A stretch of 64,000 nt of DNA from Teichococcus rhizosphaerae (GTDB lineage: Bacteria; Pseudomonadota; Alphaproteobacteria; Acetobacterales; Acetobacteraceae), in contig NZ_PDNU01000012.1 in assembly GCF_002631185.1 (NCBI RefSeq), positions 62,001 to 126,000 of the forward strand, in the 5' to 3' direction. The number at the start of each line of letters is the position of its first letter. Position 1 is the first letter of the stretch. Made by a program: the position numbers and the translations under genes. Below the pieces are notes generated by a model, which searched no databases, was not told where the DNA came from, and saw only the letters and a program-made list of their open reading frames with translations. Below are positions 1 through 61,184 of the stretch, one piece after another.

Positions 1-365
1 AGTTCTTCGCGCATCTCGCAGGCTACACCACCGCCTTCCAGGAAGCCTTCGGCCATGGCCTGGACCTCGGCTTCAGCCGCATCCTGGTCACCGCCTACGA
101 TCCGACCGACCGCAGCCAGGAAGCCCTGCTCAGCCTGTTGCGGGAGCGCTTCGGCGAGATGGTCCTGCCCGATCCCTTCCTGCACTCGCGCATCATGGGC
201 ACGGCGGGCTTCGGCAAGGAAACCCTCTACGAATACGAGCCCAGCACCGACAGGGCGGCCTACAACCGCGTGCTCGCCAGCGCCAATGCCGTGAGCCGCG
301 CGATCGAGCGGGAGATCTGGCGGTTCTGGGGCCGCGGCCTGCCTGCCAAGGAGACGACACCATGA
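1..365 (+). CDS. parA: ParA-family partition ATPase, C-terminal part only
   Basis: Only the last 120 or so codons are present; the gene enters from the left edge and its Walker motifs lie outside the window. The visible part reads RILVTAYDPTDRSQEALL, then RIMGTAGFGKETLYEYEPS, which is the style of the late region of plasmid ParA/Soj ATPases. By family knowledge it would drive segregation of the replicon by binding DNA and ParB. The TGA stop overlaps the parB ATG in an ATGA arrangement, so the two are translationally coupled. The reading frame extends to the edge with no internal start needed. Confidence 0.85.
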   Translation, partial: FFAHLAGYTTAFQEAFGHGLDLGFSRILVTAYDPTDRSQEALLSLLRERFGEMVLPDPFLHSRIMGTAGFGKETLYEYEPSTDRAAYNRVLASANAVSRAIEREIWRFWGRGLPAKETTP

Positions 366-1471
366 AGCCGCCCGCCTCTCGCTTCGGCGCCCTGGCCCAG
401 GCCGTCCGGGACCGCACGGCCAGCACGGAGGCCGCGCCCGCGCGGCCGGCCATGCCCGAGGGGGCGGGGGTCCACAAGCCCGCCGCTGCCCTGTCGCTCG
501 CCGCCGAAGGACTGCGCGACAGGGTGGCGCGCCTCGAGGGGGAACTGGCGCGGGCCAGCTCCGCCAATGCCGGGCTCGAGCGGGCCCTGGCCCATGCGCG
601 CGAGGCGGCCGGCAGGGCAGGGGACTCGGTGGAGGAGTTCCTGTTCCTGGACGCTTCGCTGATCGAGGATCCGCTTCCCCGCGACAGGCTGCCGGGCGCC
701 TTCGAGGGGCCGGAATTCCTGGCGCTGCTGGAGGACATCCGCCAGAACGGCCAGAACGATGCCATCACCGTCCGCCGGCGGCAGGACGGGCTCTACGAGA
801 TCGCCGCCGGGCGCCGCCGCCTGGAGGCCTGCCGCCGCCTCGGCATCGCTGTCCTGGCCCGGATCCGCGCGCTCAACGATCCGGCGATGCTGCGGGTGCA
901 GTTCTCCGAGAATGAGCGGCGTGAGGACATCTCTGCCCTGGAGCGCGCCCGCTGGTTCGCCGAGGTGCGGTCCCGGCTCGAAGGGCCGGCGCGCGACATC
1001 GCGGCGCAGTTCGGCCTCGATCCCTCGACCTTCAGCCTGTATCTCCGCCTTTCCCGCTTTCCGTCCGAGATCATCGAGCGCCTGGCGGAACCGCGCCGCC
1101 TGGCCGTGCTGCGGGCGCGGCGGGTGATGGAAGCCATCGAGGCCAACCCGGACACCCTGAGCCGCATCCTGGAGGCGCTGGATGCCTACCGGCGCCAGCC
1201 GCAGCCGGGCTTCGATCCGGACGAGCAGATCGCGGTGCTGATGCGGGCGGCGGAAGGGCGCGCCGCCCGGCAGGTCGCGGCGCAGCCCACGCAGCCCGAG
1301 CGGCGGCACATCGTCCATGAGGGGCGCCGGATCGGGACGCTCACGCGCAACGGCGGCCAGTGGGTGTTCCGCTTCGCCACCTCCCTGCCCGATGAGACGG
1401 TGCAAGCCATGGCGGACCGGCTGCCGGAGCTGGTGGGCGGGCCGCAGAAGCCACGCCGGGGCGGCGGCTAG
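362..1471 (+). CDS. parB: ParB/RepB-family centromere-binding partition protein
   Basis: A 369-residue protein with a coiled-coil-prone N-terminus (about residues 45-80), then a ParB-type nuclease-like domain from about residue 100. The ParB boxes are visible: AAGRRRLEACRRLG (degenerate box I) and FSENERREDISALERA (box II). A helix-turn-helix follows around DIAAQFGLDPSTFSLYLRL. It would bind parS-like sites and recruit ParA. It starts within the parA stop (ATGA). No canonical TGTTTCACGTGAAACA-type parS was seen, so the target site is unknown. The C-terminal about 60 residues may be a dimerisation tail, but I see no motif there. Confidence 0.92.
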   Translation: MKPPASRFGALAQAVRDRTASTEAAPARPAMPEGAGVHKPAAALSLAAEGLRDRVARLEGELARASSANAGLERALAHAREAAGRAGDSVEEFLFLDASLIEDPLPRDRLPGAFEGPEFLALLEDIRQNGQNDAITVRRRQDGLYEIAAGRRRLEACRRLGIAVLARIRALNDPAMLRVQFSENERREDISALERARWFAEVRSRLEGPARDIAAQFGLDPSTFSLYLRLSRFPSEIIERLAEPRRLAVLRARRVMEAIEANPDTLSRILEALDAYRRQPQPGFDPDEQIAVLMRAAEGRAARQVAAQPTQPERRHIVHEGRRIGTLTRNGGQWVFRFATSLPDETVQAMADRLPELVGGPQKPRRGGG

Positions 1472-1485
1472 GGCGGCGGCGGCAC

Positions 1486-1504
1486 GGAAGGGTGTGATCC
1501 TTCC
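1486..1504. terminator. Stem-loop between convergent parB and repA
   Basis: A perfect 6-bp inverted repeat, GGAAGG and CCTTCC, with a 7-base loop lies just after the parB stop and before the end of the oppositely oriented repA. A second small stem (GGCGC and GCGCC, 1527-1539) follows. Neither has a T-tract, so termination is inferred from placement only. It could instead be a protein-binding site such as a plasmid-type parS. Confidence 0.3.
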
Positions 1505-1543
1505 CAGCGCCGGCTGAGGAAACAGGGGCGCCTTGCGCCGCGG

Positions 1544-2578
1544 TCAGTGGTGGATGGGGGGAGGGGAGGGCTCCAGCAGCAGGCCGCGGTCGTTCACCCG
1601 CACCTTGGCGTTCTTGTAGGCCGAGAGCGCCAGATGCAGCGGCCCCTCGAACTGGGTCTTGAAGTTCTTGAGCGCCCCCACCTTGGAGCCGAACTGGCGC
1701 CAGAGCCTGTCCCAGCCGATGGGCGTTTCCTTCTGCAGGGAGTGCAGCCGGTAGGCGAGCCACAGATAGATGTCGATGGCCAGCGGGGAGGTGGTCAGGT
1801 CCCGCACGGCGGCGCGGTCCACCAGCACGGGATGGCGCCGCAACTCATCGAAGAAGGCCTGGGACAGGACCACGCGCTCCACCAGCCGCGCCGTCCGCTT
1901 GGAGCGGGGGTCGGGCTCGCCCACATAGCTGAAGGCATCGACCAGGCGCTGGTTGACGATGACGCCCTTCTTGTCGTTGCCGAAGCTGAAATCGACCGTG
2001 CAGGTGGCCAGCCGCTCGAGTTGCTCCGCGACCTTGCCGTTGCTGGGCCCGCCGCGGTTGATGCCGAGCCGCGCCACCACGGCGCTGGCCGAGCGGCCCA
2101 TATGGATCTCGCGGCTGCCACGCTCCAGCGCCTCCGTCTGCCAGTCGATCAGCAGGAGACGGGCATAGCTGCCGAAGGGGACGCCGATATATTCCTGGCT
2201 GTTGTCGTCGCGCAGCCGCACGCCCGGGCGCACCAGGAGCCGCGCGAAATCGGTCTCGATCAGCCAGTTCTGGTCCCTGGGCTGGTCCCGGTGCGGGAGG
2301 CCGGCGAGGCACCAGGCCGAGTAGCTGTAGCCGATCTCGCTGGTGCCTTCGAACTCGCGCACGATGGCCGAGGAGGCGGTGTCGGCGATCTGCCGGCCCA
2401 TGCGTCCCGCCAGCGCTTTCGGCAGGCTGGCCGGCCGGGGCTCGAGGATCGCCGCCTGCGCCGCCTTCAAGGCGCCCTGCGCCCCCTTGGCGGCGACGAT
2501 GCGATGCACGGTGTTGTCCGCGCCGAACAGTTCGCCCTGTCCGGTGCTGCCGCCCGAATTGTCATCTGGCTCGACCAT
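1544..2578 (-). CDS. repA: RepA-type plasmid replication initiator
   Basis: A 344-residue protein from the ATG at 2578, of the kind annotated as plasmid-encoded RepA in alphaproteobacterial plasmids. Recognisable stretches are GYSYSAWCLAGLPHR, YIGVPFGSYARLLLIDWQT, a helical region RSASAVVARLGINRGGPSNG, and SPLAIDIYLWLAYRL with WDRLWRQFG near the C-terminus. By family it should bind the iterons upstream of its own gene and open the origin. The start at 2578 has an AGGG about 9 bases upstream. An in-frame ATG at 2629 is a real alternative: its first codons overlap an iteron-like sequence. The frame stays open back to 2794, but that part crosses the AT-rich origin and is unlikely to be translated. 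Confidence 0.9.
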   Translation of the reverse strand: MVEPDDNSGGSTGQGELFGADNTVHRIVAAKGAQGALKAAQAAILEPRPASLPKALAGRMGRQIADTASSAIVREFEGTSEIGYSYSAWCLAGLPHRDQPRDQNWLIETDFARLLVRPGVRLRDDNSQEYIGVPFGSYARLLLIDWQTEALERGSREIHMGRSASAVVARLGINRGGPSNGKVAEQLERLATCTVDFSFGNDKKGVIVNQRLVDAFSYVGEPDPRSKRTARLVERVVLSQAFFDELRRHPVLVDRAAVRDLTTSPLAIDIYLWLAYRLHSLQKETPIGWDRLWRQFGSKVGALKNFKTQFEGPLHLALSAYKNAKVRVNDRGLLLEPSPPPIHH

Positions 2579-2614: not shown

Positions 2615-2671
2615 TGTGAACTTTGCCATCCACTCGGCGCGCCGCCACGCCCTGGCCTGTGAACCTTGCCA
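2615..2671 (-). repeat. Inverted iteron copies in the repA leader
   Basis: On the minus strand, 2658-2671 reads TGGCAAGGTTCACA exactly, matching the origin iterons but in the opposite direction. At 2615-2628 the same strand reads TGGCAAAGTTCACA, one mismatch, and it overlaps the alternative repA start at 2629. Inverted copies by the initiator's own promoter commonly act as an autorepression operator in iteron plasmids; that role is inferred here. Confidence 0.75.
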
Positions 2672-2720
2672 GCCCAGAGCAAGCCAAGGGGTTGGAGAGA
2701 GATTGTTATTGAAGAAGGGC

Positions 2721-2734
2721 TGGCAGGGTTCATG
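2721..2734 (+). repeat. Degenerate iteron copy
   Basis: TGGCAGGGTTCATG matches 11 of 14 iteron positions in the same direction as the main array and abuts the DnaA box. It may be a weak initiator site or a decayed copy. Confidence 0.45.
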
Positions 2735-2741: not shown

Positions 2742-2788
2742 CGCCATAAAGAATTGAAATTGAATGCTTTTCCGGTTTCTGGCGGTTC

Positions 2789-2947
2789 TGGCAAGGTTCA
2801 CAGCCGCGCGCCCGTTCCTCCGTCCAAAAGGCTGGCAAGGTTCACAGTGGGCCGGTGCCGGGTGACGCGGGTGAGCGCTGGCAAGGTTCACAGGACGAAC
2901 ACGAATCGGGCAGCCCGATTCCCCCGCAAAGGCTGGCAAGGTTCACA
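2789..2947 (+). repeat. Four direct iterons
   Basis: TGGCAAGGTTCACA occurs exactly at 2789-2802, 2833-2846, 2879-2892 and 2934-2947. The extended consensus is GCTGGCAAGGTTCACAG; the first copy has TCTGG at the left and the last has T in place of the final G. Start-to-start spacings are 44, 46 and 55 bases, so they are not tightly abutting but lie on roughly comparable helical faces for the first three. Confidence 0.92.
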
Positions 2948-3661: not shown

Positions 3662-3963
3662 GCCGGGCAGGTCCCGCGGGCGTCCTGCCGCCGGCCCGCG
3701 GCCCCGCCCTTCGGCCGCATCGCCGCCACCCCTGGCATGCCACCGCATCGCCGCCTTGCGCGGGACGGGGGTTTTGGGAGCCGACGCGGCTCCCTAGATG
3801 AGGCGGACGTTCCGCAGAGAGGAACGACCGGCCTTCCCTTTATTTCGCTGCCTGACGTCGCGCTGCCGCGCGGCGGCAGGCTGCGGCCCGTGGGCCGCCA
3901 GGCGGATGCGATACGAAAATGGGGCCTCCCTGGTCCCCCAGCACGAACGAGACAGGTGAATCG
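3662..3963. other. Intergenic region before the sigma factor gene
   Basis: About 300 bases without a supported gene. It holds two inverted repeats: GGGAGCC and GGCTCCC with a 5-base loop (3776-3794), which may end the toxin-antitoxin transcript although no T-tract follows, and CGTTCC and GGAACG with a 7-base spacer (3808-3826), a possible operator. A sigma factor promoter must lie here, but I could not assign -35 and -10 boxes with confidence. A short open frame from 3658 has no family resemblance. Confidence 0.4.
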
Positions 3964-5802
<1,839 letters not shown>

Positions 5803-26487: not shown

Positions 26488-27189
26488 ATGAACACCATGC
26501 GGGACCGGCCCATGGCTCCGGCGCCTGCCGCGGAGGGCCCCTTCCGCCGCATCTCGCGCGACAGCCTCAGCGAGCGCGCCTACCAGGAAGTTCGCTCGGC
26601 GCTGATGCTCAGCCGGCTGCGGCCGGGAGAGAGGCTGCTGCTGCGGCCCCTGGCGGCGCGGCTCGGCATCAGCGCCACGCCGGTGCGGGAGGCGCTGCTG
26701 CGGCTGGTCTCGGAACAGGCGCTGCTGATGGACGAGCGCGGAACGGTGGTGGTGCCCAGCATCGACCGCACGCGCTTCCTCGAGATCCGCGCGCTGCGCT
26801 GCCAGCTCGAGGGCCAGGCCGGGGCCGCCGCGGCCGCGCGCGCCGGGCCGGCCGAGATCGCGGCGCTGGGCGCGATCCATGCGCGGCTGGTGGAGGCCGA
26901 GGCGCGCGGCGACTTCCCCGCCGCCCTGCAATGCAACGAGCAGTTCCATTTCGGCCTGTGCCGGCTGGCCGGCCTGCCGGTGCTGCTGGGGCTTGTCGAG
27001 ATTTTGTGGATGCAGTGCGGGCCGCTGCTCAGCCACCTCTATGCGGAGGGGGCGCGGAACCTGCCGCGGCATGGCCATCTGGAGGCGCTGGAAGGGCTGC
27101 GGCGGCGTGACGCGGCGATGGTGCGTGCCGCGGTGGTGCGGGACATCGAGGAGGGCGGCCGGCCGCTGCTGGACTTCCTCCGCCGATGA
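26488..27189 (+). CDS. GntR-family regulator, FCD (FadR) subgroup
   Basis: A 233-residue regulator. The winged helix (about 20-85) contains RAYQEVRSALMLSRLRPGER and LAARLGISATPVREALLRL; the C-terminal helical FCD ligand domain includes EIRALRCQLEGQAGAAAA and the metal-site-like FHFGLCRLAG. FCD members usually release DNA on binding an organic acid or sugar acid. It is divergent from the ADH-Liv operon and likely its repressor. Starts at 26479 (GTG) and 26497 (ATG) are also possible; 26488 is chosen for a GGGG at good distance. Confidence 0.88.
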   Translation: MNTMRDRPMAPAPAAEGPFRRISRDSLSERAYQEVRSALMLSRLRPGERLLLRPLAARLGISATPVREALLRLVSEQALLMDERGTVVVPSIDRTRFLEIRALRCQLEGQAGAAAAARAGPAEIAALGAIHARLVEAEARGDFPAALQCNEQFHFGLCRLAGLPVLLGLVEILWMQCGPLLSHLYAEGARNLPRHGHLEALEGLRRRDAAMVRAAVVRDIEEGGRPLLDFLRR

Positions 27190-42647: not shown

Positions 42648-44258
42648 ATGGCGGAGACCGTCGAGATCGGTGAGGAAATCACCGCGCACAACCTGAAGAT
42701 GGGCATGCCGCCCGTGCCGGCGGCCACCGCGCGCGACCGGGGGCAGGGGCCCTACGGCCGCATGGTGCTGCGTGGCGCCACGATCATCGACGGCACCGGC
42801 GCGCCGCCCTGGGGCCCGGCCGACATCGTCATCGAGCGCGACCGCATCGCCGCCATCGTCGCGGTGGGCGTCCCCGGCAAGCCGATCAGCCCTTCCCGCC
42901 GCCCGCCCGAGGGCGAGGTGGAGATCGACTGCCACGGCAGGTTCGTGACGCCCGGCCTGATCGACTGCCACACCCACACCGGCGTGCCCTACCACGCGCT
43001 GCACGGCACGCCCGCGCCGGCCGACTACGTGTACAAGCTGTGGCTGGCGCATGGCGTCACCACCATCCGCGAGATGGGCAGCTTCAGCGGCCTCGGCTGG
43101 ATGCTGGAGCAGAAGGCGGCCTCGGCGGCCAACCGCATCGCCGCGCCCAACATCGTGGCGCATTCCTACTTCCCCGCCGTCAACGACATGCTCAAGACCA
43201 TCCACACGCCGGAGGAAGGGCGCGCCTGGCTGCGCCGCCTGGCCGAGCGCGGCGCGGATGGCGTGAAGTTCTTCGGCGCGCCCCCCGCCATCATGAAGGC
43301 GGCGCTGGAGGAGTGCCGCGCGCTCGGCCTGCGCACCGGCTGCCACCACGCGCAGCAGGCGGTGACGCGGATGAACGCGCTGACCACCGCCGAATGGGGC
43401 CTGACCAGCGCCGAGCACTATTACGGCCTGCCCGAGGCGCTCTACGACAGCCGCATCGTCCAGAGCTACCCGAGCGGCTACAACTACAACGACGAGTATT
43501 TCCGCTTCTCCTCCGCCGGCCAGACCTTCCAGCAGGCGGCCGAGCCGGGAAGTGCCAAGTGGAACGCGGTGATGCAGCGTTTCCTCGACCTCGACTTCAC
43601 CTTCGTGCCCACCTTCAGCATCTACGACGCCAACCGCGACGTGATGCGCACCCGCCGGGCCGACTGGCACGACGACTACACCTGGCCCAGCATGTGGCGC
43701 TTCTTCCAGCCGGCGCGCGGCGGCCACGGCTCCTACTGGTTCCGCTGGGGCACGGCCAACGAGATCGACTGGAAGACGCATTACCGGCTCTGGATGGCCT
43801 TCATCAACGAATACAAGAACCGCGGCGGCCGGGTCTGCACCGGCAGCGATTCCGGCTTCATCTTCCAGACCTTCGGCTTCGGCTATGTGCGCGAGCTGGA
43901 GCTGCTGCAGGAGGCGGGCTTCAACCCGCTGGAGGTGCTGCGCTCCGCCACGCTGCAGGGCGCCGAGCTGCTCGGCATCGACGGCGAGACGGGCAGCGTC
44001 GAGGTCGGCAAGCGCGCCGACCTGCTGGTGCTGGACGAGAACCCGCTGGAGGACTTCAAGCTGCTCTACGGCACCGGCGCGCTGCGGCTGAACGACGCGA
44101 CCGGCAAGCCGGAATGGCGCCAGGCGCTGCGCCACACCATCCGCGCCGGGCTGGTGCTGGACGTGCCGGAGCTGCTGGCCGACCTGCGCCGCATGGTCGC
44201 CGCGCAGAAGGACGCCGAGGCGGAGACGGAGAGGGCCGGGGCGCCCGCGCCGGCATGA
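42648..44258 (+). CDS. Metal-dependent amidohydrolase
   Basis: A 536-residue amidohydrolase. Metal-site features appear in order: LIDCHTHTGVPYHALHG (His-x-His), a likely carbamylated Lys in GADGVKFFGAP, His in TGCHHAQQAVTRMN and SAEHYYG, and Asp in CTGSDSGF. The N-terminal beta sandwich starts VLRGATIIDGTGAPPWG. Family members hydrolyse imides, ureides, prolidase-type or N-acyl substrates. GAAAGGAAG lies about 6 bases before the start. Its stop overlaps the start of a COG0523 metallochaperone gene, which suggests assisted metal insertion. Confidence 0.9.
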   Translation: MAETVEIGEEITAHNLKMGMPPVPAATARDRGQGPYGRMVLRGATIIDGTGAPPWGPADIVIERDRIAAIVAVGVPGKPISPSRRPPEGEVEIDCHGRFVTPGLIDCHTHTGVPYHALHGTPAPADYVYKLWLAHGVTTIREMGSFSGLGWMLEQKAASAANRIAAPNIVAHSYFPAVNDMLKTIHTPEEGRAWLRRLAERGADGVKFFGAPPAIMKAALEECRALGLRTGCHHAQQAVTRMNALTTAEWGLTSAEHYYGLPEALYDSRIVQSYPSGYNYNDEYFRFSSAGQTFQQAAEPGSAKWNAVMQRFLDLDFTFVPTFSIYDANRDVMRTRRADWHDDYTWPSMWRFFQPARGGHGSYWFRWGTANEIDWKTHYRLWMAFINEYKNRGGRVCTGSDSGFIFQTFGFGYVRELELLQEAGFNPLEVLRSATLQGAELLGIDGETGSVEVGKRADLLVLDENPLEDFKLLYGTGALRLNDATGKPEWRQALRHTIRAGLVLDVPELLADLRRMVAAQKDAEAETERAGAPAPA

Positions 44259-45250
44259 GCGGCGCGGGCATGGAGGACGCCGCCGAGTTCATCCTGCTCG
44301 CCGGCTTCCTGGGCAGCGGCAAGACGACGCTGCTGGTGGACTGGCTGCGGCTGCCCGAGGCGGCGGACACGGCGGTGATCGTCAACGAGGCGGGGCAGAT
44401 CGACGTGGACGGCGCCGTCATCGCCACGGGCGGCACCCTGCCCATGGCGCTGCTGAGCAATGGCTGCGTCTGCTGCTCGCTGACCAACGACCTCGTCTTC
44501 ACCGTCGAGGCGCTGCTGCGGCAGCGGATGGAGACGGGCAAGCCGCCCTTCCGCCGCATCGTGCTGGAATGCAGCGGCCTGTCCAGGCCGGGGCCGATCC
44601 TGCGCTCCCTCGGGCCGCTGGCGCCGCTCGGGCTGCGGGTGCGGGTGGTGGCCACCTGCGACGCCGCCCAGGCGGCCGAGCGCGCGGCGCATTTCGAGGA
44701 GTTCGCGGCCCAGCTCGCCGCCGCCGACACGGTGGTGTTCACCAAGCTGGACCAGACTTCGCCCGAGGCCGCGCAGGCGCTGGCCGCCTCCATCAACCCG
44801 CTGGCCCGGGCGGTGGTGGAGCCGGACCGCGCCGCCCGCGCCCTGGCGGCCTTCACCGCGCCTCCGGGCCGTGCCTCCAGCCTGCCGGAAGGGGAGGCGG
44901 GCGCGCATCCCCGCGTCTCGGTGCTGCTGGCAAGGTTCACACCGGAGGCGAGCTGGGAGGACCGGCTGGACTGGCTGGAGAACCTGGCCGCCTTCGCTGG
45001 CGAGCGCCTGTTGCGCGTGAAGGGCTTCCTGCACCCGCCCGAGCAGCCCGGCCTTGCCGTGCTGGTGCAGGGGGTCGGCACGCTGTTCAGCCCCATGGTG
45101 CCGATGCCGCGCGGCGAGCGCACGCCCGAGGCGCTGGTGGTGATCCTGCGAGACCTGGAACTGGAGGCGGTGCGGCAGATGATGCCGGAGGCGCCGGCCT
45201 GGATCAGCCGCCTTTCCGGCAACCGCCTGCACTGCGCCGGCGTGGGCTGA
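44255..45250 (+). CDS. COG0523 (CobW/P47K) metal-handling GTPase
   Basis: A 331-residue GTPase: Walker A LLAGFLGSGKTTLLVDW, the metal-binding SNGCVCCSL (C-x-C-C), a switch region VLECSGLSRPGPIL, and VVFTKLD for guanine recognition. The C-terminal CobW-type domain is present (about 235-331). COG0523 proteins deliver Zn, Co or other metals to client enzymes. ATGA overlap with the amidohydrolase gene implies it serves that enzyme. The gene contains an exact 16-base copy of the replication iteron (44926-44941), using the rare codons GCA, AGG and ACA. Confidence 0.9.
   Translation: MSGAGMEDAAEFILLAGFLGSGKTTLLVDWLRLPEAADTAVIVNEAGQIDVDGAVIATGGTLPMALLSNGCVCCSLTNDLVFTVEALLRQRMETGKPPFRRIVLECSGLSRPGPILRSLGPLAPLGLRVRVVATCDAAQAAERAAHFEEFAAQLAAADTVVFTKLDQTSPEAAQALAASINPLARAVVEPDRAARALAAFTAPPGRASSLPEGEAGAHPRVSVLLARFTPEASWEDRLDWLENLAAFAGERLLRVKGFLHPPEQPGLAVLVQGVGTLFSPMVPMPRGERTPEALVVILRDLELEAVRQMMPEAPAWISRLSGNRLHCAGVG
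44926..44941 (+). repeat. Distant iteron copy inside the COG0523 gene
   Basis: GCTGGCAAGGTTCACA matches the first 16 of 17 bases of the origin iteron, about 42 kb away. It encodes Leu-Ala-Arg-Phe-Thr in frame with the gene. It may bind RepA. The match is seen directly; the function is inferred. Confidence 0.6.
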
Positions 45251-57011: not shown

Positions 57012-58379
57012 TCAGCCGCCCCGCGCGGCCTGCTCCCCGCCGCCCTTTGCGCCGCCCGTTGCGCCGCCCGTCGCGCCGGCCAGCGGGGCGCCCCGCGCGC
57101 AGGCCTCGCCCAGCAGCAGCAGGGCCGGCCCATCCTCCACCCAGCCACCCGCCCGGCGCGCCACCTCGGCGAAGCTGCCGCGCAGCACGCGCTGCCGGGG
57201 CGTGCCGCCGCGCTCGATGAAGGCGGCCGGCTGCGCGGGGTCGCCGCCCGCCGCGACGATGCCCTCGAACAGCAGGGGCAGGGTGGTGACGCCCATATAG
57301 ACCGCCACGGTCTGGCCGGGCTGGGCCAGGCTGGCAAAGTTCACATCCAGCCGGCCATCCCGCGTGTGGCCGGTGACGAGGGTCAGGCTGCGGGCCGCGT
57401 CGCGGTGCGTCAGGGGGATGCCGGCCTGCGCCGCGCAGGCCAGGGCCGCGGTGATGCCGGGCACCACCTCGCAGGCGATGCCGGCGGCCTCCACCGCCTC
57501 CTTCTCCTCGCCGCCCCGGCCGAAGATGAAGGGATCGCCGCCCTTGAGCCGCACCACCTTCAGCCCCTCCCGCGCCAGGCGGACCAGCAGCGCGTTGATC
57601 TCGCCCTGCGGCACGCAGTGATGCGCGCGCACCTTGCCGACATAGATGCGCCGCGCGTCGCGCCGCGCCAGCGCCAGCACCTCATCCGGCACCAGCCGGT
57701 CATGCACGACGACATCCGCCTCGCCCAGCAGCCGCAGCGCCCGCAGGGTGAGCAGGTCGGCCGCGCCGGGGCCGGCGCCCACCAGATGCACGCTGCCCGC
57801 GGGCGCCGCCTCGGCCCGTTCCAGCGCGGCCGCGAAGGCGGCGTGCGCCTCCGCCTCGCGCCCCTCCTCGGCGAGGCGGGCGGCGGGGCCGGAAAGGGCG
57901 GCGTCGAGGAAGCGGCGGCGGGCGGCGAGGCCGGGCAGGCGCGCGCGCACGGCCTGCCGGAAGTGCCGCGCCATCGCCGCCACCCGGCCGAGCCCCGGTG
58001 CCAGCACGGTTTCGACGCGCTGCCGCGCCATGCGCGCCAGCACCGGCGCCGCGCCCCCCGTGCCGATGGCGATGGTGATGGGGTCGCGGTCGACGATGGC
58101 GGGGGTGACGAAGCCGCACAGCTCCGGCCGGTCCACCACGTTCACCGGAATGCCGCGGGCGCGGCAGGCGTCGTGAAGGGCGCGGAGATCCTCCTCCGGC
58201 GCGCCGGCGGCGCAGGCCAGCGCGATGCCTTCCAGCAGGTCCGGCGCGAAGCGCGCGGCGCGGCGCGGGCGCGCGCCGGCCTCCTCCAGCAGCGCGGCCT
58301 TGGCCTCCAGCGCCTCGCCGCCGCCCAGCAGCAGCACGTCGCGGCCCTGAAGGTCCAGGAAGATGGGGAAGTGGCGCAT
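57012..58379 (-). CDS. cysG: Siroheme synthase (precorrin-2 dehydrogenase/ferrochelatase and SUMT)
   Basis: A 455-residue bifunctional enzyme, near the 457 of E. coli CysG. The N-terminal CysG-B domain starts FPIFLDLQGRDVLLLGGGEA with RPELCGFVTPAIVDRDPITI; the SUMT domain starts about residue 195 with VHLVGAGPGAADLLTLRALR, LVPDEVLALA and RLKGGDPFIFGRGGEE. It converts uroporphyrinogen III to siroheme for sulfite and nitrite reductases. The last 20 or so residues are Gly-Ala repeats. An iteron-like TGGCAAAGTTCACA lies within it (57332-57345). Confidence 0.94.
   Translation of the reverse strand: MRHFPIFLDLQGRDVLLLGGGEALEAKAALLEEAGARPRRAARFAPDLLEGIALACAAGAPEEDLRALHDACRARGIPVNVVDRPELCGFVTPAIVDRDPITIAIGTGGAAPVLARMARQRVETVLAPGLGRVAAMARHFRQAVRARLPGLAARRRFLDAALSGPAARLAEEGREAEAHAAFAAALERAEAAPAGSVHLVGAGPGAADLLTLRALRLLGEADVVVHDRLVPDEVLALARRDARRIYVGKVRAHHCVPQGEINALLVRLAREGLKVVRLKGGDPFIFGRGGEEKEAVEAAGIACEVVPGITAALACAAQAGIPLTHRDAARSLTLVTGHTRDGRLDVNFASLAQPGQTVAVYMGVTTLPLLFEGIVAAGGDPAQPAAFIERGGTPRQRVLRGSFAEVARRAGGWVEDGPALLLLGEACARGAPLAGATGGATGGAKGGGEQAARGG
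57332..57345 (+). repeat. Iteron-like sequence inside cysG
   Basis: TGGCAAAGTTCACA differs from the origin iteron at one base and is identical to the copy at the alternative repA start (2615-2628, minus strand). Flanking GGC on the left extends the match to the iteron consensus. Confidence 0.45.
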
Positions 58380-60693: not shown

Positions 60694-61184
60694 CCGCGCG
60701 TTTCCGGCGCGCCCTTGAAGGGGCCGACGACACGATCCGTCACCCAGCCGCCATAGAAATCGCCGGGCTGCGGGCGGACCCGCTCCTCGCCCACCCAGCA
60801 GGCATCGACGCGCCCGGCATAGAAGGCGAGGCAGCCGGCGATGGCGCGGAAGGCCGGCACGGGATCGGGGTAGCTCCAGGCGGCGTTGGGCGCGATGCGG
60901 CCGTCCAGCTCCAGCGTCCAGTAGGCGGCGCGGCCCTTCCATTCGCACCAGGAGCCGCCGGGGGCGGGGCGCAGTGCATCCAGCCGGATATCCTGCGGCG
61001 GGATGTAGTAGGCGGGCGGGTGGCTGGTTTCCAGCACGCGCCATCCGGCGCGGCTGTCGGCGATCAGCTGCCCGGCGAAGGCCACGCGCAGGCGCTCGGC
61101 CACCGGCTCCAGCCGGGGCGGGCGGGGGTAGTCCCACACGGATTCCTGCCCCGGTCCCGGCTCGGCACGTTGCGGATGGGCCAT
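60687..61184 (-). CDS. DUF427-family protein
   Basis: A 165-residue soluble protein. RVAFAGQLIADSRAGWRVLE, SHPPAYYIPPQDIRLD, WCEWKGRAAYWTLEL, AAWSYPDPVPAFRAIAGCLA and YAGRVDACWVGEERV follow the DUF427 pattern, with a conserved Cys-Glu-Trp-Lys core. Function is unknown. It precedes the histidine phosphatase with coding overlap. Confidence 0.88.
   Translation of the reverse strand: MAHPQRAEPGPGQESVWDYPRPPRLEPVAERLRVAFAGQLIADSRAGWRVLETSHPPAYYIPPQDIRLDALRPAPGGSWCEWKGRAAYWTLELDGRIAPNAAWSYPDPVPAFRAIAGCLAFYAGRVDACWVGEERVRPQPGDFYGGWVTDRVVGPFKGAPETRGW

Follow-up and report, generated by a model that had tools for sequence, protein, structure and literature searches.

The window, that is, the whole 64,000-nucleotide stretch of DNA analysed here, forms part of a 156,304-base contig (C18) within a 4.65-Mb draft genome (G000). 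At its left end, a ParB/RepB-type partition gene and the gene of a RepA_C replication initiator converge, with iterons between and beside them (Table 1); a PF04796 initiator together with a direct-repeat iteron array adjoining its gene assigns the origin to the RepA_C iteron replicons, and the inverted and direct iterons that accompany the RepA gene resemble those of RepA_C (PF04796) iteron plasmids. An rpoD-type sigma-70 gene (window 3919-5802) adjoins the origin, and the same neighbour is found in the complete pL11-C of P. cervicalis (194,559 bases, circular, non-mobilizable), in which an AAA ATPase gene, parB, repA and rpoD follow one another in the order seen in C18. Because this gene order is common to C18 and a circular plasmid, we infer a chromid-like replicon, belonging to a Pseudoroseomonas/Roseomonas family that is driven by RepA_C and carries parAB and an rpoD-type gene. 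The eight closest relatives of the RepA in named genomes all come from Pseudoroseomonas or Roseomonas, and no sequence match to it was found among solved structures. The end of C18 and the start of contig C19 have 316 identical bases in common, including part of a cupin gene, and the two contigs may join there.

Table 1. Origin features, distal iterons and host genes (window coordinates unless prefixed by the contig name C18)
Feature	Position	Strand	Remarks
ParB/RepB-type partition gene	362..1471	+	adjoins origin
Iteron variant between convergent parB and repA	1493..1508	-	2 mismatches
RepA_C replication initiator gene (PF04796)	1544..2578	-	E 9.9e-19, 68.7 bits, cut-off 26
Origin iteron, repA-proximal, inverted	2615..2630	-	2 mismatches
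Origin iteron, repA-proximal, inverted	2658..2673	-	exact GCTGGCAAGGTTCACA
Origin iteron variant	2719..2734	+	3 mismatches
Origin iteron	2787..2802	+	1 mismatch
Origin iteron	2831..2846	+	exact GCTGGCAAGGTTCACA
Origin iteron	2877..2892	+	exact GCTGGCAAGGTTCACA
Origin iteron	2932..2947	+	exact GCTGGCAAGGTTCACA
COG0523 (CobW-type) GTPase gene, hosts distal iteron	44255..45250	+	cobW and CobW_C domains; start assigned here
Distal iteron in COG0523 gene	44926..44941	+	exact 16-mer GCTGGCAAGGTTCACA, identical to four origin iterons
Siroheme synthase gene cysG, hosts second distal iteron	57096..58379	-	host gene
Second distal iteron in window, antisense inside cysG	57330..57345	+	1 mismatch
Permease gene	C18:26544-27473		PF00528; hosts exact site C18:27101
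Cupin gene	C18:155872-156303		PF07883; hosts 1-mismatch site C18:156043

Dispersed iterons in excess of chance

The initial annotation had equated a 16-mer inside the COG0523 gene with the origin iteron, and the identity is indeed exact, at 44926-44941 as at four origin positions. Two patterns were used throughout, namely the 16-mer GCTGGCAAGGTTCACA and a 19-column profile built from 95 origin iterons of 11 sequences (the genome G005/L056 being present twice), all of which score at least 20.2 bits. Away from the origin, C18 carries exact matches to the 16-mer at 27101 and 106926 (window 44926) and 1-mismatch matches at 119330 (window 57330), 150156 and 156043; these five strong distal copies score 24.9 to 30.3 bits, and four of them lie within coding sequence. 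Further matches with at most one mismatch occur on other contigs of the same genome (C39:15603 and C55:18544), and that at C19:66 repeats the end of C18. A few additional distal matches of 12 to 19 bits were left out of the counts; the match at window 49956 (2 mismatches, only 12 bits) is probably due to chance.

That such a recurrence would hardly arise by chance, as first supposed, is borne out by 11 matches with at most three mismatches in the window against a shuffle mean of 0.42. A replicon-wide scan against codon shuffles, proposed at the same time, was carried out on seven replicon contigs with 120 shuffles, in which codons were exchanged among identical residues of each called gene and dinucleotides were shuffled between genes; the gene caller is crude, and the COG0523 gene was missed by it and hence shuffled as intergenic. 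Distal sites of at least 20 bits numbered 17 against a null mean of 0.36, and those of at least 24 bits numbered 15 against a null mean of 0.09 (maximum 2 in 120 shuffles at either threshold), although the genomes share ancestry and the 15 sites do not represent 15 independent events. At the lower threshold, the contigs contribute five (G000), four (G016), four (G008), two (G014), one (G009), one (G011) and no sites (G005).

In a sample of 78 genomes, which included that of the window, seven further genomes encode a RepA that is 87-95% identical. Each of the seven has off-origin matches with at most one mismatch; those of G005 and G010 all lie away from the contig that bears repA (in G010 it measures just 11.7 kb), and those of the five-contig G014 are confined to its RepA contig, C3. 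The comparison set of nine genomes, made up of seven congeners without a matching RepA, a congener at 58% and a family member at 62%, yielded one such match in total. Some 1-mismatch matches in genomes other than G014 lie on contigs of unassigned replicon and may be incidental. The reversed 16-mer gave no match in the window's own genome or in the compared genomes; chance as the source was rejected on the strength of the shuffles, the reversed pattern and the genomes without a matching RepA.

In three other RepA_C iteron families, the sole off-origin match with at most one mismatch was G000:C56:11920, with a background at two mismatches in most genomes; in five named plasmids that are more distantly related, iterons were inspected in the neighbourhood of the RepA gene. 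The near-absence in the three families speaks against dispersal as a general RepA_C property, and the dispersed iterons look particular to the group with RepA at 87-95%.

Several further copies were noted in passing. The distal iteron at C18:150156 and its counterpart at G016:C85:122890 each precede an Lrp/AsnC-type gene by about 50-60 bp. An identical 96-base stretch with a 1-mismatch iteron, in what we take to be a monooxygenase-like gene, is found at G000:C39:15603 and G010:C555:37317, two species, which suggests a recent transfer. One-mismatch matches within the same type of gene, presumably VirB1-like, occur on other contigs at G000:C55:18544, G016:C23:52615 and G016:C24:4661; the peptide probably dictates them. 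An extra iteron-like site precedes the cupin site by about 275 bp in P. vastitatis and P. oryzae (L061:14610 and L062:14668). Two copies in facing orientation at the end of G010:C105 were treated as an assembly artefact.

Codon choice at the distal sites

The COG0523 site lies in frame and is read as CTG GCA AGG TTC ACA, in which GCA, AGG and ACA, correctly singled out as rare by the initial annotation, account for 3.4%, 4.4% and 3.2% of the codons in their respective families on the contig. It is the top scorer among 27648 synonymous encodings of LLARFTP, and the probability of reaching 20 bits under contig codon usage is 1.1e-3. In a comparison of 16 COG0523 genes (E up to 1e-40), the site is present only in the window's own genome (30.2) and in G016 (32.7); it is missing from the six other orthologues from genomes with a matching RepA (scores at most -3.1) and from eight from genomes without one (at most 4.7), none of which keeps the 16 bases, as the proposed dependence on RepA had implied. 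The peptide at the site differs in five of the six site-less orthologues from genomes with a matching RepA, and the sixth (G008) keeps LARFTP, spelled with common codons and without the site. The COG0523 site is probably recent and common to two sister species. The proposal that it is the DNA, and not the protein, that is preserved has strong support where the set of sites is concerned. The COG0523 site is confined to those two species, and the bulk of the evidence comes from the cupin and permease sites, outside the window. Similarly, the cysG site is the best of 4608 encodings of DVNFASL but, with a probability of 0.037 of reaching 20 bits from codon usage alone, is weak evidence when taken alone; of the six rows compared, those of G000 and G016 alone have it. 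Four cysG rows (G011, G010, G033 and G003) fell outside the peptide search pattern and contribute no site peptide.

The permease peptide LARFT is constant in all 18 genes compared (the G012 match ends before the site and was left out of the counts). It is encoded as CTG GCA AGG TTC ACA in four of the seven genes from genomes with a matching RepA (G000, G016, G010 and G011) and with commoner codons in G005, G009, G014 and all 11 genes from genomes without a matching RepA; the best scores are 28.8 bits with the iteron codons versus at most 2.6 without them. The site ranks third of 27648 synonymous encodings, with a probability of 2.5e-4 of reaching 20 bits under contig codon usage. Within the region covered by all four site-bearing genomes, which is limited by a G010 copy cut by a contig end, the seven site codons are identical, compared with 63 of 109 comparable codons overall. 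The permease tree requires two changes, either one gain and one loss or two gains.

In the cupin gene, AGTVHI is coded GCT GGC AC(G or A) GTT CAC ATC in nine of ten genomes with a matching RepA (seven of eight in the genome sample, P. vastitatis and P. oryzae), six of the sites having one mismatch (24.9 bits) and three having ACA and two mismatches (21.2 bits); the same site is found inside the annotated cupin gene of pL11-C (24.9 bits). None of 18 cupin loci from genomes without a matching RepA has the site or scores above 7.4 bits, and the peptide is unchanged in 15 of them, namely those whose site region fitted the search pattern (G018, G028 and G030 fell outside it and were still scored among the 18); two weak rows (G019 and G027) and the C19 cupin fragment were left out. 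The site is the best of 1536 synonymous encodings, with a probability of 1.6e-4 of reaching 20 bits under contig codon usage, and the 1-mismatch form is the best that the protein allows, because threonine forces ACN. The cupin tree requires four changes and is poorly resolved, with 9 of its 19 inner branches open.

All five C18 distal sites recur in G016, and that at C18:150156, situated in a diverged intergenic region, forms an island of about 20 bases identical to G016. The cupin gene of G005 groups with those of the site-bearing G009 and G014 (96/87), yet is without the site. In this genome, the cupin and permease genes form a block on contig C127 (L252-L255) in which both sites are missing, whereas the repA-parAB module (L115, L159-L161) lies on C11, which has little else in common with the other replicons; C127 is likely another replicon, and the loss of the sites seems to have gone hand in hand with that of the linkage to RepA. 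G005 also encodes a second RepA relative, at 60%, on C146. In G009 and G014, the permease gene is on the repA contig, yet lacks the permease site, which counts against the explanation favoured below.

The rare synonymous codons occur in bacteria with the matching initiator, and this suggests that protein-coding genes carry DNA sites serving replication control. The choice of codons for an unchanging peptide would then be a comparative signature of a plasmid-type origin possibly gaining chromosome-like control; the same peptides with and without the site in related species offer ready test cases, and synonymous recoding would remove the sites while leaving the protein intact.

Predicted reader and role of the distal iterons

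The iterons beside paralogous repA genes have a similar layout and a different sequence, and iteron sequence varies along with RepA across paralogous replicons. This combination points to RepA as the reader of the iterons, and its binding to the distal copies is predicted with good confidence. Sites of the parS type are typically conserved, dispersed and located inside genes, and the distal iterons resemble them in this; even so, a centromere-like or nucleoid-organising function, with ParB or another protein as the reader, is improbable, as the 16-mer is not palindromic, which a parS would be, and a separate palindrome, TTGGATGCATCCAA, lies near repA and parA. Clusters of two or three copies of this palindrome occur about 2.4-2.7 kb from repA in 12 of 12 sequences scanned, exact in 11 and represented in G011 by two 1-mismatch copies, with no exact copy and a single 1-mismatch copy (in G016) elsewhere in these sequences. 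The cluster stands directly upstream of a parA-like gene in C18 and pL11-C, and is likely to be the ParB site (parS); the 16-mer was set aside as a ParB site on account of it. The paired copies of C18 lie just left of the window, at 61057 and 61090, and are conserved in related replicons.

As far as sequences can tell, the distal sites exist, exceed chance, accompany a matching RepA and are favoured at the DNA level, and their selection at this level is very probable. The explanation that is slightly favoured for the distal 16-mers is that they are RepA-binding iterons kept by DNA selection, which would restrain initiation by titration or handcuffing; a restraining role, the likeliest of those considered, is by itself evenly balanced. 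The initial annotation had proposed a decoy, a handcuffing site or a timing site, roles that stay conjectural. The replicon family, whose repA contigs carry up to five single distal iterons each (that of G005 carries none), several of them written into protein genes by rare synonymous codons, would hold RepA at the distal iterons or bridge them through RepA to the origin iterons; upon duplication of the replicon, less RepA would be free for the origin, and re-initiation would be restrained. The odds are about even that a network of initiator-binding sites in unrelated genes of a secondary replicon, spelled by rare synonymous codons, arises, persists and decays according to the linkage of its host genes to a matching RepA origin, in which case the replicon would mark its own DNA for replication control while its proteins are changed little or not at all. 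Against titration, the few distal sites face about seven or more origin iterons and have little titrating capacity, all the more so in pL11-C, where nothing but the cupin site exceeds 20 bits away from the origin; fewer sites would suffice for handcuffing or for a timing signal. Moreover, a need for distal sites is not general, because the three other RepA_C iteron families show almost none.

A timing or checkpoint signal, in which replication of the distal iteron rather than mere binding would signal the origin in the manner of crtS and V. cholerae chromosome 2, would fit a single cupin site that is kept in nine of ten genomes with a matching RepA and is alone above 20 bits off the origin of the complete pL11-C, but the reading is unlikely, given that this site lies anywhere between about 5 kb and about 100 kb away from repA and that the G014 matches are all on the RepA contig and none on other contigs. 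A shade less probable still is RepA acting as a local transcription regulator or roadblock at the host genes: the site before the Lrp/AsnC-type gene in two species and the extra site before the cupin site in P. vastitatis and P. oryzae would suit it, whereas all but one of the five C18 sites fall within coding sequence, no relation is apparent among the host genes, the sites come and go among species, and RctB appears to regulate its own transcription only (PMC11711613). The least probable explanation is that near-matches in conserved peptides arose by chance or as neutral codons, were fixed once and were kept by descent; a permease tree with just two changes, a cysG site that is not improbable alone and the incidental look of the VirB1-like and monooxygenase-like matches are compatible with it, but the excess over the shuffle null, the identity of the permease site codons, the codon-usage probabilities of three sites (1.6e-4 to 1.1e-3) and the absence of both sites from the G005 block, which lies off the repA contig, are not what it predicts.

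In the literature searched, which most subscription journals lay outside, distal initiator sites were found only for V. cholerae chromosome 2, and a search combining Pseudoroseomonas, plasmid and replication found nothing. The initiator RctB is different from RepA_C. In V. cholerae chromosome 2, iterons and a 39-mer within about 74 kb, some 40 kb from ori2, bind RctB, and these distal sites measurably reduce the copy number of mini-chrII, according to PMC3937223 and a review (PMC6090056). The C18 arrangement is alike in having initiator-type iterons on its own secondary replicon, tens of kilobases from the origin; it differs in that binding and mini-chrII inhibition were measured there, while the present sites are single iterons known from sequence, with a selection that is visible through synonymous codons. 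On V. cholerae Chr1, the inactivation of newly found RctB sites, some of them inside coding sequences, barely affected Chr2 replication, apart from a single weak negative effect on copy number (PMC11711613), and this result counts against a restraining role of distal iterons.

The datA locus acts on DnaA of the main chromosome. As in a datA-like case, initiator-type sequences were found outside the origin beyond chance, and the idea that non-origin DNA binding the initiator limits initiation is similar; the present sites differ in being isolated and mostly inside coding genes. E. coli datA, a DnaA titration locus, serves as a comparison case in PMC3937223 and PMC6090056. Likewise, crtS is described in PMC11711613 and PMC3937223 as a site on Vibrio chromosome 1 that enhances replication of the other chromosome. 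It is comparable in being a distant DNA site read by the initiator of a secondary replicon (a reading by RepA that is predicted here), but the conserved sites have the look of plain iterons and belong to the RepA contig, and a location on the main chromosome was not found among the off-origin matches of G014. A title cited in PMC11711613 states that Vibrio crtS depends on Lrp; the link with the Lrp/AsnC-type neighbour of one distal iteron is probably a coincidence.
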